Below, one piece after another: positions 6,218 to 15,488 of a DNA stretch of 15,488 bases (position 1 is its first letter; each line of letters starts with the position of its first letter). The DNA lies in NCBI GenBank assembly GCA_021161465.1, contig JAGHAM010000032.1, forward strand, positions 1 through 15,488, read 5' to 3'. The notes beneath the pieces are model-generated. The model was not told where the DNA came from and made no database searches. It was given only the letters and a program-made list of their open reading frames with translations. The stretch comes from Candidatus Iainarchaeum sp. Lineage in GTDB: Archaea > B1Sed10-29 > WALL01 > JAGHAM01. The position numbers and the translations under genes were made by a program.

Positions 6218-7438
6218 TTAGGGTATAAAAGCATTGGGGTTCAATTCCCTCTCTCTGTCCTTGACAAAGCTGAGGAAATCTTCAAATCCCTTCCACTCAC
6301 CAGAATTTCCATCGAAATCATAGCTGTCTTTATCCGTCACAACAAGATACAAGAAATATCTCCCATAGGTAGAGTTAGATGGCACAAGCATTTCCGTGTC
6401 ATTCCTAAGGTCATAAACCAATTCACCTGTTTGTGGTTCAACAAGAATTGCGTCCTTAAGTGAGCTATAAACATCTTTACTGGAAGCTATTGGCCTAGGG
6501 GAAAATGCAACGACACAATGCCCAACCACATCACTGCTTGTTTCAACGTTTGGAGCTTCCGGGAAATTTCCACAAGCCATGTAATAGTTTTCATACTCTT
6601 TAGGTAACTGTTTTTTCTCGGTGTTTTTCAAGTAATACGTGCGCGAGTTCTCTACGTAAAAGATACTACCCCCTTGGACAAATCCTGTAAATGATGCATT
6701 TGTATTCTTCTCGGTACAAAACCCTGTCAGGTAGTTCAGTTCTGCCATAAAGAGTATGGAAAAATCCTCACAGTCTCCGCCTTTGTTGGATATGATAGAT
6801 TCTAGATTTTGGAGGGCATCACTAGTCCCACTGGTTTCATTATCTGTTTTATACTCCAGGCCCTCTTTGTAAGAGTTAACGAAGCTGAGGCAGGCTAGGT
6901 TTATGTTGCAATCACCGTGCTCAAGCTTAACACACCTGCTCTTAAGCGAATCCTGAAAGTGTTTGTAGTCACTGAAGTGGTCTATATTTGAATTCTCCCT
7001 GAACCAATTCATCCTATCGTTCAACCGTGTCTCGTATGCTTTCAACTCATCCAATGTGCTGTTGATGTCAGTCTTCAGGGCAGATAGCTGCTGTCCTTTC
7101 TCCTTAAGCTCCTTGTCCTTATTCTCGAGTTCACTGTTAGCTTTCTCCAGTGATTTTTCCAGCTTTGAATTGTTGTACTCAAGCGAAGAGATGTATGTCT
7201 TCTGTTCTTCAATCACATTAGAGGCGTTCTCAACTGAAGCTGACAGGTTCTGTATATGCTTCTCCATCGAAGCAATCTGGGCAGTTGCCAAATCCAGCTT
7301 TCGCTCCAGTTCTTTTGAGCGCGTGTCAGCATTGTATGCAAGAAGCGACACCACCGCTAAAACAAAAATCAGAACAACTATGGCTGCCCCAGTCCACGAG
7401 TATTTAACTTTTCTTGCCTTCTTCTTTCGCGCCAACAA
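6218..7438 (-). CDS. Membrane-anchored coiled-coil protein with transglutaminase-like domain
   Basis: Numbering is from the TTG at 7462 (414 residues). A basic stretch (ARKKKARKVK) precedes one membrane helix (about 25-43), so the bulk should lie outside the cell. Residues 48-150 are a heptad-rich coiled coil (Leu/Glu/Lys with repeated LE and NS). Residues about 155-400 look like a transglutaminase-like cysteine hydrolase: GGDCEDFS with Cys231 as nucleophile, GHCVVAF with His315, and VEPQTG where Glu342 may take the place of the usual Asp. Such domains act as proteases or amidases, or in cross-linking; the substrate is unknown. Several extra cysteines suggest disulfides. The start is uncertain. 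TTG 7438 gives MLARKKKARK and fits a transcript start near 7454; TTG 7462 adds eight residues. Confidence 0.75.
   Translation of the reverse strand: MLARKKKARKVKYSWTGAAIVVLIFVLAVVSLLAYNADTRSKELERKLDLATAQIASMEKHIQNLSASVENASNVIEEQKTYISSLEYNNSKLEKSLEKANSELENKDKELKEKGQQLSALKTDINSTLDELKAYETRLNDRMNWFRENSNIDHFSDYKHFQDSLKSRCVKLEHGDCNINLACLSFVNSYKEGLEYKTDNETSGTSDALQNLESIISNKGGDCEDFSILFMAELNYLTGFCTEKNTNASFTGFVQGGSIFYVENSRTYYLKNTEKKQLPKEYENYYMACGNFPEAPNVETSSDVVGHCVVAFSPRPIASSKDVYSSLKDAILVEPQTGELVYDLRNDTEMLVPSNSTYGRYFLYLVVTDKDSYDFDGNSGEWKGFEDFLSFVKDRERELNPNAFIP
6223..6230 (-). promoter_or_regulatory. Possible internal TATA box for the histone-like gene
   Basis: On the minus strand GCTTTTATACCC lies at the very end of the upstream coding sequence. 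A transcript starting about 27 bases downstream (near 6200) would have a 20-base leader containing AAGGTGG before GTG 6180. It may be a chance match, since these bases also encode the upstream protein's last residues. Confidence 0.3.
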
Positions 7439-7477
7439 ACCACATCCAATGCCGTAAACCAATAAACGTAGCCAAAG

Positions 7478-10092: not shown

Positions 10093-11412
10093 TTAACTCG
10101 TCCATGGGCAGTCAGTATCTCCACCAGAATAAGTACAACCAGATGGACAACAACCATCGCCTGGATTGCATTCTGTTATATCTTCATGGACACATTCTCC
10201 AGATGAACACTTGTCAATAGTACATGAATCGTCATCATTACAGTCAGCATAAGTCAAACATTTGTTTGGACTGCAATCATTATCATTATTGTAAAAACAA
10301 GTTTCTGGGCAACACCCATCATCATTTATACATTCAATGATTGGCATGTACACGCATCTTTTTGCATCATCTTCCTTATTGTGAGAACATATGTTCTGAG
10401 TACAAGAATTACCATCATCACAATCAGCATCAGACTCGCATTGATTGCAATCAGAATCTCCAGGATAGCTACATCCGCCAGGGCAACAGCCGTCTCCACC
10501 AATACAGGAAGTTATCTGTGTATTGACACACTTTCCATCATCATTGCATTCATCAATTGTACAAGAATCCCAATCATTACAGTCAGAATTCTTTTCACAT
10601 TTTTTGGTAGGTTGAACCTGTTCACAATCACTATCACTTTTGTAATCACAGTTTCCTGGACAGCAATCATCATCAGATTTGCACTCTGTTATGGTAGAAT
10701 AGTAGCAATATCCATTTCTACACTCATCTAGAGTGCAAGAATTATTATCAGAACAATCCTCTGGAGAAGAACACTCAGTTCCTAGATAGCAATCATTGTC
10801 TGTATTGTCGCAACCTCTTGGGCAACAGCCGTCACCAGATTTACATTCTGTTATAATAGAACGTTGACACATGTTATTAACACACTTTTCTGTTGTGCAT
10901 GGGTTGTTATCAGAACAGTCTTCATCTGAAGTGCAACCAAAGCACTTCCTGGTCTCAGTCTTAGTTGTGACATTACCACATTTATTCAAATCAGCACATG
11001 TCCTGTTCTGTGAGCCATTAATACACTTACCCCACTCACCACATTTCCAGTTTTCCACACACAGATGCGTTTTTTTCTGCAGACGAATTTCAACAGGAGA
11101 CTCTTTACCAGCATAAACAAAGACAAGTTCACTCGTTTCTGGATAATTTGTTGCCGATACATTGATGTAGTAGTATCCGGGTTTAAGTTCAAGTTTAGTA
11201 GTTCCATTTTCACCAACAATCTTCTTTGATACAAAATCCCAATCCTGGGTATACACGTACACTATCGCACTCTTAATGGGTGAGGAAGTTTCAGTATCTA
11301 AGGTAGATACTTTTACATAACCTTTTTCCCCAAACGGAAATTGTGTTAGAACAACAGCTAACACTACGAGAACAAGCAAACCAAATACAACAGCAATTAA
11401 CTTCTTTATCAT
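10093..11412 (-). CDS. Anchored or secreted Cys-rich protein with TSP1-like and five slime-mould-type repeats
   Basis: This 439-residue surface protein begins with a Lys-rich start and a hydrophobic helix (6-23) lacking a clear cleavage site, so it may be a membrane anchor. Residues 31-112 resemble a carboxypeptidase-regulatory/PEGA-like beta sandwich (VKVSTLD, ELKPGYYYINVSA). Residues 118-157 look TSP1-like (CVENWKCGEWGKC, SQNRTC). Residues 160-435 are five tandem repeats of about 50 residues. Each has C-x5-C-x5-C-T-x3-C, a short run to another Cys, then 'I-x2-C-x4-DCC or GCC-P-x2-C' and an acidic end (DxDC); the pattern resembles the slime-mould (Dicty) repeat. Adhesion or ligand binding, perhaps with calcium given the Asp/Asn density, is inferred. 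It is divergent from the giant surface gene. Confidence 0.85.
   Translation of the reverse strand: MIKKLIAVVFGLLVLVVLAVVLTQFPFGEKGYVKVSTLDTETSSPIKSAIVYVYTQDWDFVSKKIVGENGTTKLELKPGYYYINVSATNYPETSELVFVYAGKESPVEIRLQKKTHLCVENWKCGEWGKCINGSQNRTCADLNKCGNVTTKTETRKCFGCTSDEDCSDNNPCTTEKCVNNMCQRSIITECKSGDGCCPRGCDNTDNDCYLGTECSSPEDCSDNNSCTLDECRNGYCYYSTITECKSDDDCCPGNCDYKSDSDCEQVQPTKKCEKNSDCNDWDSCTIDECNDDGKCVNTQITSCIGGDGCCPGGCSYPGDSDCNQCESDADCDDGNSCTQNICSHNKEDDAKRCVYMPIIECINDDGCCPETCFYNNDNDCSPNKCLTYADCNDDDSCTIDKCSSGECVHEDITECNPGDGCCPSGCTYSGGDTDCPWTS
10108..10935 (-). repeat. Five-unit Cys-rich tandem repeat within the coding region
   Basis: Units begin at residues 160, 214, 272, 325 and 385 of the minus-strand protein and are 49-56 residues long. 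Each carries DCxDxxxCT near the front and a CCP motif near the end. The DNA has diverged between units, so this is old protein-level duplication and not a recent DNA repeat. Confidence 0.8.
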
Positions 11413-11524: not shown

Positions 11525-14500
11525 ATGAAAAAGATAGGATTAATTTACATGATTTTAACCCTCCTTCTGACTATCTCTGCTGCCTATCAAAACGTGTATG
11601 TTGAACAATGGTTGAGAACAGATAGTATCTCAACAATAAGCGACTCTTTTCCATCTGAATGTGATGACTATAGAAAGTGTAATCCTGCTCCAACAATTTT
11701 CAAAGCCCTGAGTTCATCTATAGGCGATCCGGGAACAAAACATTGGATGATACTTGGATTGCAGGATGGTAGTTGGAGAGGTTACTGGTGGAGTAAGTCA
11801 CAAAATAGATGGGTGAGAGATGATCGAATAGTGATGGGTTTATCTAATACTGGTGGTTGGGCAAGACCTGTAGTGTTCAAGATGGGAAACACATGGTATC
11901 TAATAACTGGTAGGAAAGATGGTGGGTTCAGTGGATATCATTGGGGTGGTGGCTCCAGTGGTGGTGTATGTGTTGGAAACGACGCATACTGTGCAAGTTA
12001 TGGAGGCGAGACAACATGTAATTCTAAGGCAGGATGCAAATGGGTAGGTGGTTCTGGTATATGTACTGGTACTATCATATGGCCAAGAACTTGTGGGTTG
12101 GCATGCGCCGCGTGTGGTGGGTTATGTAGCCCACGAACTCTCCGTTGTTTCCCACATGTTGGAGATTGTAGTTCCGATCTAGTAAAGGATTGTGCAAACT
12201 GCCCTGGGTGCTCAGGTGGTGGTAGTGGTAGTTGTGTAGGTGATGATGACTACTGCTCTACCTATAACAACAACGAGGTTGGCTGCAAATCAAAATCAGG
12301 ATGTTCATGGCAGAGTAGTGCAGGAGGTCAGTGGGTGCCTGACACCAGCATCGTCAGTGGATTAGGAACATTCTGTACAGGTTGTTCTTCAGGTGAATGT
12401 TATACAAGTCCTGCTGTTGGTTTCGATATTACTGGCGAAGGTCACTGGAATCTAATTGCTGGAAATGCAAATGCTAGGTTAAAAGGATGGTCATACTATT
12501 CAGGTTCATGGCATGCGGATTCTTTGGTAACTCAGAATTTACCTACTACTATTGGTGCATGGGATTGTAGATCTGCACGGATAGGTGGCACGTGTTACAG
12601 GTACATAGTAACAGCGAGACCTGCACTTGTATTCAATGCCACTGGAAACGAAGAATGGCATTTGCTAGTTGGTAAAACAGAATGGTGGTGGAACGCAGGT
12701 TCAGCTGACGTGCCATGGCACTTCAGAAGTTACGTACGTGAGGGAGATTACTGGATTCCTGATAGTAGTTTTAAGCTTGGTGTTGAAGACCCAAACAAAG
12801 GGCAAGTCCTCCCTGTACCAAATATGCCTGCCTTTGCTTACAACGTAACTGGAAATGGTTTCTGGTGGTTAATAGTTGGTGTGGGTAAAAAAAGCGGGTT
12901 TGGCATGCCTAGTAGTTATCTCCCCAGTTTCTACTGGGATGACCGTGATGAACCTGATCAAGCTAACTGGAGCCCCTATCCTGGCTTCTACGTTCCCTAT
13001 ACTTCATTCACTTTGAAGCTTGATCTGGATGAAGATGGAGACTGTTTTGCAACTGTTAATATGCCAAAGATGGGATATTACGATATGGTTAATGACCCCA
13101 ATGTAACTAAAAGAGTTTTCGATTGTCGTGGAGATGGTACTAACGATATAGAATGTGATATCTCTGGTCTTGAAGACTGGCACAAAAGACCAGGAGGAAA
13201 CGAAGTGGTTGTTGCATGCAAAGATACCCACGACAACGCCAATGATGAGGCCACCTCACAAAAGTTGATATATTACATTGATGCAACTCCCCCAGAGTAT
13301 AAGGATCAATCTCAAAACGTAAGTGGTGCACCACCGTCCATACCAGATAGTCCAAGACCGTACGTTAACATGAGTGCATATGGGATGGACACAGTTGTTA
13401 CATCGGGGTGGCTGTGGACCAATGAGAGTGGGGATCCCGGAATAAATTATTCTGTACCCTATTGGCATGAGAAATTTAATAGTTGGAGTAGGAGGAAAGA
13501 AATAATTGTAAACAACTCGTATCAGGGGAATAATCCTGATCCAACAGACAACTATCAGGTATACTTCAAAGTAAATTATGATTCTGATATGCAAGGGGAC
13601 TTTGACGATTTAAGATTCTGTGATGTTGATGGGAATGAACTCAACTACTGGATTGAGAGGAAAGTCAATGGTAGTTATGCCTATGTGTATGTGAACATCC
13701 CTCACCTATACTCATTTTCGGTTCCAAAGATATACATGTATTACGGTAACCCAACAGCCCACAGCAAGAGTGATCCAACCCTCACTCTAATTTATTACAA
13801 GAATTTCAAGAGTTCGAATCCGTCAATAGGGTGTGGAAGTTGGCTAGAACAAGGTAAATGGTGTTGGGGTTCCCACCCGTCTGGAGTAAGCTCTTATTGT
13901 GAGAAAAATTATTTCACTTGGCGCAGTGGCTATGGAATTAAGTTTCATTGGGAAGAATGCCACAGAGAACCTGGTGCCGCATATACTGAGTACGTACCTA
14001 TATTCAATGATGTAAGTAAAAAATGGTACACGATGAATCCTGATATTAAGATTAAACTAAATTTAGACTACATAAACAACCCAAGCAGAACTAGGGGGGG
14101 TGGTCCCACATTCATGCTAACCAATATAACTGGCATACATATGAACGATGGAAGTAGCTCGCATCCTTATGACCCAGATAACGCCAGCATTATATATTTC
14201 CACATACATGCAGGTAAGCTTTTGGATGGCACCACACCCAGCACAAGTGAATTAGTCATCCACCCCGGTGCTCAACATGGAATGAGTGGAACCAGTGGTA
14301 TTACTTGTGGAATAATAGGGAAAGGAGAGCACTGGATAGAGCTCCTAGTTAAAAAGAATAAATTACATTTGTACTTAGATGAAAAAGAATGCGGATCAGT
14401 AGACGTAACAAGCATGCAATTTAACAAGAAGACTTATTGGCAATACTTCGTTGCTCAAGATAAGCAAAGTGGGAGTGCGAGTAGTACGTATACAACAGGA

Positions 14501-15488
14501 ACTATAGAAGAGATTTACGGTAGAAAAGTGCTCAATTTTGAACCTGAAGTGAAGATAGGACCGGAAGTAAGAAAAAGTGATTTATTAGAGGCATATGGCT
14601 CTCCAAAGATCATTGAAGAAAAGAGGAAATGGGCCCTCACAGACTTTATGTGGCTGAATGATTCCTCTAAGTTACGCAACAAGAACATTACATGGAGCAT
14701 ATGGTATGCCGATGTGTTTGGACATAACACCGAAACTGAGAAGATGAGTTTCCTAATTGGAGGAGGAAATAACGCTCCCAATGCTTGTTTCACCACGAAT
14801 TACACAGGTAACACCAAAAATCCAACAAAGATTGATGCAAGAATTGGTTCTACTGTAGAATTTGATGGTAGTTGCAGCTTAGATCCGGATCCTGGAGATC
14901 ACGTGGACACATATACTTGGAGATATTCTGGGACTCCAACATATAAAAAATTCCCGAACAACAAAACAGTTTTCACTTTCAATAATCAGGGTGAATTCCA
15001 AGTGTGTCTGAGTGTTAATGATACGAAAGGTTTATTCAACAGTCCACCAAACCCTTGTGTGATGGTTAACGTCTCGGCAAACACGCCACCAATAGCATAT
15101 GCGCATCCATCAAAAATCACCGGTGCTGTATACCAATGTCAGGTTGGTGGAAACGTATTGTTGGATGGTTCCGCTTCATCCGATCCTGATGGAACAATAG
15201 CATCGTGGGAATGGGATGTAGGTGGTTGGACGGGTAGCGGTGAAACTGTTTCATATCCTTGTTCAACTGGCGGTGATAACGTTGTAACTTTAACTGTGAC
15301 AGACAACGATGGCGCCACGGGCGATGATTACGCAATAGTTAGAGCGATCTCGCCACCCAAGCCAGCCAAACTAATTGTAAAGTCAGTTCAGCCGATATAC
15401 CCAATCAGGCCAGGTATAAGGTCAAATGCAACAGTCACGATTGAGAATACCGGCCAACAAAAAAGTGGACAGTATAATATAACTTACG
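11525..15488 (+). CDS. Giant secreted multidomain surface protein (3' end outside window)
   Basis: The frame is open for 1321 codons to the window end. A signal peptide is visible (MKKIGLIYMILTLLLTISAA). Residues about 60-470 hold five repeats centred on W-x-L/I-I/L-x-G (near 73, 124, 308, 378, 447), suggesting a beta-propeller-like array. A Cys-rich insert (149-292) splits it and contains two similar units, CVGNDAYC and CVGDDDYC, 88 residues apart. An Ig-like stretch (about 605-650, VNMSAYGMDT, TNESGD) leads into DUF2341 (654-750: WSRRKEIIVNN, DFDDLRFCD, MYYGNP) and a lectin-like jelly-roll region (750-1000). An LRNKNITWSIWY segment (about 1055-1080), two PKD domains (1084-1184, 1187-1276; GSCSLDPDPGD, SASSDPDG) and a CARDB-like start (1280 on) follow. 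A cell-surface adhesion or glycan-binding role is inferred. No anchor is visible yet. Confidence 0.9.
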   Translation, partial: MKKIGLIYMILTLLLTISAAYQNVYVEQWLRTDSISTISDSFPSECDDYRKCNPAPTIFKALSSSIGDPGTKHWMILGLQDGSWRGYWWSKSQNRWVRDDRIVMGLSNTGGWARPVVFKMGNTWYLITGRKDGGFSGYHWGGGSSGGVCVGNDAYCASYGGETTCNSKAGCKWVGGSGICTGTIIWPRTCGLACAACGGLCSPRTLRCFPHVGDCSSDLVKDCANCPGCSGGGSGSCVGDDDYCSTYNNNEVGCKSKSGCSWQSSAGGQWVPDTSIVSGLGTFCTGCSSGECYTSPAVGFDITGEGHWNLIAGNANARLKGWSYYSGSWHADSLVTQNLPTTIGAWDCRSARIGGTCYRYIVTARPALVFNATGNEEWHLLVGKTEWWWNAGSADVPWHFRSYVREGDYWIPDSSFKLGVEDPNKGQVLPVPNMPAFAYNVTGNGFWWLIVGVGKKSGFGMPSSYLPSFYWDDRDEPDQANWSPYPGFYVPYTSFTLKLDLDEDGDCFATVNMPKMGYYDMVNDPNVTKRVFDCRGDGTNDIECDISGLEDWHKRPGGNEVVVACKDTHDNANDEATSQKLIYYIDATPPEYKDQSQNVSGAPPSIPDSPRPYVNMSAYGMDTVVTSGWLWTNESGDPGINYSVPYWHEKFNSWSRRKEIIVNNSYQGNNPDPTDNYQVYFKVNYDSDMQGDFDDLRFCDVDGNELNYWIERKVNGSYAYVYVNIPHLYSFSVPKIYMYYGNPTAHSKSDPTLTLIYYKNFKSSNPSIGCGSWLEQGKWCWGSHPSGVSSYCEKNYFTWRSGYGIKFHWEECHREPGAAYTEYVPIFNDVSKKWYTMNPDIKIKLNLDYINNPSRTRGGGPTFMLTNITGIHMNDGSSSHPYDPDNASIIYFHIHAGKLLDGTTPSTSELVIHPGAQHGMSGTSGITCGIIGKGEHWIELLVKKNKLHLYLDEKECGSVDVTSMQFNKKTYWQYFVAQDKQSGSASSTYTTGTIEEIYGRKVLNFEPEVKIGPEVRKSDLLEAYGSPKIIEEKRKWALTDFMWLNDSSKLRNKNITWSIWYADVFGHNTETEKMSFLIGGGNNAPNACFTTNYTGNTKNPTKIDARIGSTVEFDGSCSLDPDPGDHVDTYTWRYSGTPTYKKFPNNKTVFTFNNQGEFQVCLSVNDTKGLFNSPPNPCVMVNVSANTPPIAYAHPSKITGAVYQCQVGGNVLLDGSASSDPDGTIASWEWDVGGWTGSGETVSYPCSTGGDNVVTLTVTDNDGATGDDYAIVRAISPPKPAKLIVKSVQPIYPIRPGIRSNATVTIENTGQQKSGQYNITY

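Follow-up and report, generated by a model that had tools for sequence, protein, structure and literature searches.

The window analyzed here, a stretch of 15,488 nucleotides that makes up one entire contig (C24), ends inside the gene of a large secreted protein from an archaeon whose genome is, as first surmised, small (0.98 Mb at 93% completeness). The locus raises the question of what this protein does at the cell surface, and in particular what is formed by its N-terminal region, which the first-pass annotation could place in no nameable family and had read as the blades of a propeller in a possible adhesin or glycan-binding protein.

Completion of the reading frame and domain organization

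An ORF scan found no stop codon from the ATG at 11525 to the end of the window at 15488 (forward strand), in agreement with the open frame of 1321 codons described at first. The final 127 bases of the window are an exact match to the first 127 of a second contig of the same genome (C8), and the frame joined across the two contigs has 1430 codons, for a protein of 1430 amino acids. This join is supported by a related genome from a second genus (public record JAIOSL010000006.1, archaeon isolate SMBSF43), where the ortholog, of 1362 amino acids, sits between the same two Cys-rich neighbors in a three-gene neighborhood; the 127-bp overlap and the matching gene order rule out an assembly artefact at the contig end. 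Hydropathy places a hydrophobic run at residues 1-22, as expected from the signal peptide proposed earlier, and a hydrophobic helix at about residues 1391-1415, followed by a basic tail; some 15 residues of the frame remain past the helix. This membrane helix lies on C8, beyond the window, where the first-pass annotation had advised looking for a C-terminal anchor. Both an export signal and a membrane anchor, as sought in a surface adhesin, are present by sequence only, and they strongly indicate that the protein is exported and membrane-anchored. The description of the protein as giant holds only in relative terms, since related proteins sit in frames of more than 5,000 codons. The features of the locus are as follows, with residue numbers referring to the surface protein.

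10093..11412, reverse strand: divergent, N-terminally anchored Cys-rich protein, a conserved neighbor that adjoins the ortholog too
11525..15488, forward strand: surface protein gene, first 1321 of 1430 codons; remainder on contig C8
11525..11584, forward strand: signal peptide, residues 1-20 (hydropathy; kept in the ortholog)
11597..11632, forward strand: N-terminal strand of the propeller, residues 25-36, putative fourth strand of blade 5, which would close the ring (Trp register; low pLDDT)
11684..11818, forward strand: predicted blade 1, residues 54-98 (AF2 strands; alignment)
11864..11944, forward strand: predicted blade 2, strands 1-3, residues 114-140 (AF2; blade HMM, 53 bits)
11945..12322, forward strand: Cys-rich insert, residues 141-266, two similar Cys-rich units between strands 3 and 4 of blade 2
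12323..12379, forward strand: predicted blade 2, strand 4 and a short helix, residues 267-285 (AF2)
12404..12517, forward strand: predicted blade 3, residues 294-331 (AF2; alignment)
12605..12760, forward strand: predicted blade 4, residues 361-412, with a Trp-rich 2-3 loop (AF2; alignment)
12824..13009, forward strand: predicted blade 5, strands 1-3, residues 434-495, with a long 2-3 loop at 454-487 (AF2)
12998..13294, forward strand: Ig-like domain, residues ~492-590 (matches the Ig-like part of a surface protein on contig C22, E 3.4e-6)
13328..13459, forward strand: probable split Ig-like domain, first half, residues ~602-645 (sequence pattern, ortholog alignment)
13598..13819, forward strand: DUF2341, residues 692-765 (Pfam E 2.4e-15; genome search 63.9 bits)
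13820..14566, forward strand: probable ConA-like jelly-roll, residues ~766-1014 (three-sequence profile)
14585..14767, forward strand: probable split Ig-like domain, second half, residues ~1021-1081 (ortholog alignment)
14780..15334, forward strand: two PKD domains, residues ~1086-1270 (Pfam PKD_4, two stretches; PDB PKD matches)
15368..15488, forward strand: start of CARDB, continuing on C8, then the membrane helix at ~1391-1415 and the basic tail (127-bp overlap)

The N-terminal region is predicted to form a five-bladed propeller

The five W-x-L-x-G repeats noted at first are present, at residues 74, 124, 308, 378 and 447, and their motif is better given as W-x-[LI]-[LI]-(x)-G. Structure prediction of residues 21-495 with AF2, from ten input sequences, gave 20 strands in five sets of four with blade cores mostly at pLDDT 70-97 and a pTM of 0.65, in a model that leaves the Cys-rich insert unmodeled and is not independent of the repeat alignment, the input already holding the aligned repeats. 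With a single-blade HMM built from other proteins only, two blades reached 53 and 17.5 bits and part of a further blade reached 9.5 bits; the highest score among 200 shuffles of the region was 5.1 bits. The N-terminal strand carries an invariant Trp that aligns with the fourth strands of blades 1-4, in a stretch of low pLDDT. These data predict with good confidence that the N-terminal ~470 residues form a five-bladed beta-propeller, and the repeated beta units that the earlier reading hung on are what the prediction returns. Scans of this N-terminus against Pfam, NCBIfam and PHROG gave nothing over cut-off, as expected from a region without a nameable family.

The Cys-rich insert reported in the first-pass annotation is real, with 18 Cys in about 128 residues and a GC content of 49% compared with 42% elsewhere. 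Alignment shows that it is missing from the ortholog; it has no Pfam match and no further copy in the genome, and is restricted to this lineage. Since it separates strand 3 from strand 4 in blade 2, it should lie opposite to the face that corresponds to the active site of glycosidases.

Comparison with five-bladed glycosidases

Comparison of the model with solved structures by VIA-align returned five-bladed glycosidases for nearly all top matches, with Z of 16-18.6 over ~240-270 residues: GH159 at Z 18.6 (rmsd 3.8, 246 residues), the arabinofuranosidase 3qee at Z 18.4, and GH62 and GH117 at about 17. Like these enzymes and GH43, the propeller is predicted to have five blades closed around an axis. 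GH43 enzymes carry an Asp immediately ahead of the proline that starts blades 1 and 3, and in blade 4 a Glu two residues ahead of that proline; a weak alignment to BoGH43A shows two of these acid places. In the present propeller, the residues preceding the five blade-start prolines are A, R, S, R and M, and those two positions before are P, A, T, A and N, with no acid among them. No acid is invariant across the propeller family, and neither the propeller itself nor the canonical copies described below have any Pfam match, GH43 included. A close match to a characterized enzyme family had been named in advance as grounds for abandoning the adhesin reading; the fold is indeed close to GH43, GH62, GH117 and GH159, while the GH43 acids and any family-level sequence match to these enzymes are absent. 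The propeller further differs from them in being part of a modular, membrane-anchored surface protein.

The order of the strands suggests that blades 4 and 5 present their long 2-3 loops on the face matching the glycosidase active site. The blade-5 loop (454-487) is acidic and aromatic and is conserved, being 65% identical to the ortholog compared with 55% overall. The acids in this loop (DDRDEPDQ) could serve catalysis or metal binding, so that an enzyme is possible. The acidic loop is kept in the ortholog and not in the paralog introduced below, and we therefore read it as a binding face with changing specificity.

The domains of the putative stalk and a small protein family

Past the propeller, several of the modules named in the first-pass annotation are recovered by profile searches. 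DUF2341 (PF10102) scores 57.2 bits against a cut-off of 23.4, the two PKD domains are found in two stretches (Pfam E 2.5e-15), and CARDB, sub-threshold inside the window, reaches 28.8 bits on the C8 part (cut-off 22.7). The Ig-like part that follows the propeller resembles its counterpart in the surface protein on contig C22 and has no Pfam match. The jelly-roll-like region can be graded as probable, its three-sequence profile touching GH16 (ConA-fold) chains weakly (E 0.02-0.17), and the DUF2341/ConA-like unit probably splits an Ig-like domain. AF2 of residues 602-1081 from two sequences gave no usable model (mean pLDDT 37), so both of these readings draw on sequence patterns alone. By their domain types, the CARDB, PKD, Ig-like, DUF2341 and probable ConA-like domains would form a stalk. 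A second DUF2341 protein, with the pilin-like N-terminus MQKGISPVVAAVLLITISVIAG, is encoded on another contig of the genome (C4; L084:2964-5552), just before an FtsZ-like gene.

The genome that holds the ortholog also encodes a second, tandem protein of 1335 amino acids with the same domain order and 27% identity over the aligned part. The domain order had been thought undescribed; as both the ortholog and this paralog share it, it defines a small family and not a lone oddity. The gene is flanked by Cys-rich proteins at 10093-11412 (reverse strand) in the window and at L009:868-3009 (reverse strand), as it is in the related genome. Both flanking proteins are membrane-anchored at the N-terminus and contain a weak CarboxypepD_reg domain; the one in the window has sub-threshold Pfam matches to CarboxypepD_reg and Dicty_CTDC. 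The surface gene and its two flankers are a conserved surface-protein cassette. Elsewhere in the window, the product of the gene at 6218-7462 (reverse strand) combines a membrane helix at its N-terminus with a long coiled coil, and its match to transglutaminase-like proteins is weak (E 0.05).

Occurrence of the propeller in other archaea and in viruses

A profile built from the two N-termini led to a clearer 50-residue repeat in other archaea, with the consensus WVSDSSIVSGLGDVGSNSAPTVFQKDSTWYLISGESDGTFNGYQWNGTQ. With a wider profile, the propeller domain was found in 10 of 394 archaeal genomes, including the two described above; the search of archaeal proteins proposed at the outset has therefore yielded relatives in eight genomes outside the phylum, one of them by a weak match. 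Wherever a copy is complete enough for its units to be counted (HMM and by eye), there are five. In L037 the split point is shifted and the total is still five, as expected of a closed ring. In many copies one unit is repeated almost unchanged. The archaeal relatives are mostly found with Ig-like parts, and several have a terminal membrane helix. In L034, L035, L039, L043, L044 and L047, the propeller seems to interrupt an Ig-like or PKD-like domain within one of its loops, the second half of that domain resuming past the fifth blade. PHROG matches on the canonical copies cover short stretches only, and the family is without a Pfam or NCBIfam model.

A scan of IMG/VR with the two-row alignment gave no matches; the canonical alignment then found the propeller in six contigs, once weakly, and one contig (L043) carries two. 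A tape measure gene (E 4.7e-43) precedes the propeller gene of L046, with a few genes between them. On the L043 contig, the gene directly downstream of the propeller gene encodes a tail protein (E 7e-10), a weak tape measure match (E 2e-4) lies upstream, and a terminase is found above cut-off. L044 has a similar arrangement without family matches. The propeller is therefore among virus tail genes in at least two of the six IMG/VR contigs. Many tailed phages carry their baseplate and receptor-binding genes at this position. The propeller proteins of these tail clusters are large (L043:4245-8990, L044:3282-9035 and L046:4128-7151), and the one in L044 shows two propellers by eye and a DUF2341-like part. 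The simplest form of the module is a protein of 300 amino acids (L045:4830-5729) with little beyond a leader and a five-bladed propeller, on a contig that also matches a baseplate hub/tail lysozyme. The virus contigs gave no match to the portal family PF04860, and the propeller had no match among phage records. Among plasmids there was a single weak match, a Nostoc protein annotated as FG-GAP-like; Pfam returned no FG-GAP match for the propeller.

A provirus origin of the cellular copies was also considered and set aside, there being no tape measure match in the genome studied here or in seven of the eight other propeller genomes. In G301, tape measure matches lie on contigs other than that of the propeller; the cellular copies do not adjoin tape measure genes. 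We tentatively propose, as a possibility we rate below even chances, that the propeller family is a non-catalytic receptor-recognition cassette, often carried in an Ig-like loop, that has been exchanged as a shared binding part between tailed viruses and the adhesins of small archaea.

Proposed function and alternatives

Taken together, the fold match and the domain context are best read as a surface adhesin whose propeller tip is non-catalytic and probably binds glycans, a reading we consider reasonably probable, and the putative role suggested in the first-pass annotation can be kept. The signal peptide would export the protein and the C-terminal helix would hold it in the cytoplasmic membrane, the stalk of beta-domains keeping the propeller, at the far N-terminal end, away from the membrane. 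The predicted closed five-bladed propeller, of GH43-like fold and without the GH43 catalytic acids, may then use the long conserved loops of its face to grip a glycan or glycoprotein, whether this belongs to another cell, to the coat of the cell itself or to the matrix. That the tip binds such a ligand is, on balance, rather likely. The relatives in archaeal surface proteins and among virus tail genes suggest a part that probably serves for gripping sugars or other cells, although a shared fold shows no function and the role of the viral propellers is putative. The partner might be a host cell, for which the small genome is the only hint.

The same fold match could instead point to an active glycosidase or lyase that relies on other acids and trims a polysaccharide of the environment or the coat of the cell, with the remaining domains as carbohydrate-binding and spacer modules. 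The enzymes that dominate the structural matches and the four blade-5 loop acids conserved in the ortholog speak for it; we nevertheless think it improbable, given that none of the five blades has an acid at the GH43 positions, that the family has no invariant acid, that the acidic loop is missing in the paralog, and that near-identical repeated units suit a lectin or scaffold better than an enzyme. Propellers often bind proteins, and the propeller profile has weak PDB matches to LGI1, a protein-binding propeller (E 0.003). Together with the neighborhood conserved in two genera, this would be in keeping with a structural part of the envelope that binds a neighbor protein, such as the flanking Cys-rich proteins, or the S-layer, and no other cells. 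We regard this as unlikely, since the propeller occurs in many proteins without these neighbors, virus tail clusters included, so that the Cys-rich pair is not its partner in general.

For DUF2341 proteins of other archaea, a role as PilY1-like adhesins at the tip of type IV pili has been proposed, large examples being encoded in Methanococcus pilus loci (PMC4858521). Several T2SSE-type ATPases and the second DUF2341 protein with a pilin-like start are present in the genome here; the protein's own C-terminal membrane anchor and the lack of any pilus gene adjoining it, in the window or on C8, make such a role very improbable.

Relation to known systems and implications

The membrane-anchored adhesin that we favor has partial counterparts in several known systems. 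It shares with the DUF2341 proteins of archaeal type IV pilus loci (arCOG03508; PMC4858521) the placing of DUF2341 in a large secreted protein, and differs from them in its own anchor, its propeller, its PKD/CARDB stalk and the absence of adjoining pilus genes. SPEARE and other giant surface proteins of Nanohaloarchaeota (PMC6642349, PMC10266531) have, as here, a signal, a propeller, an Ig-like ectodomain and a C-terminal helix, and likewise come from small-genome archaea. They reach up to 9,409 amino acids compared with 1430 here, and their propellers are described as WD40/PQQ-like. The conserved cytoplasmic C-terminal region of SPEARE is missing from the present protein, the frame of which stops soon after the membrane helix, leaving it without a cytoplasmic ATPase domain. 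The receptor-binding protein of phage phi11 has a five-bladed propeller proposed to hold GlcNAc (PMC4901313), which is closed by an N-terminal strand, as the sequence register may indicate here, and likewise has mostly carbohydrate enzymes as DALI matches. As with phi11, the propeller studied here has relatives in virus tail clusters and a proposed glycan binding, whereas the phi11 protein is trimeric and has a helical stem, and no sequence relation emerged between the two here. We found no paper in the open-access literature that joins a five-bladed propeller to an archaeal adhesin.

Partner recognition by small archaea is mostly unknown, and their large surface proteins usually go unannotated past PKD and LamG domains. 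The propeller provides a definable module in such proteins, one for which a fold can be predicted, a binding face proposed and a motif searched. As it also occurs in virus tail clusters, the idea that cells and viruses have a recognition part in common can be tested directly.
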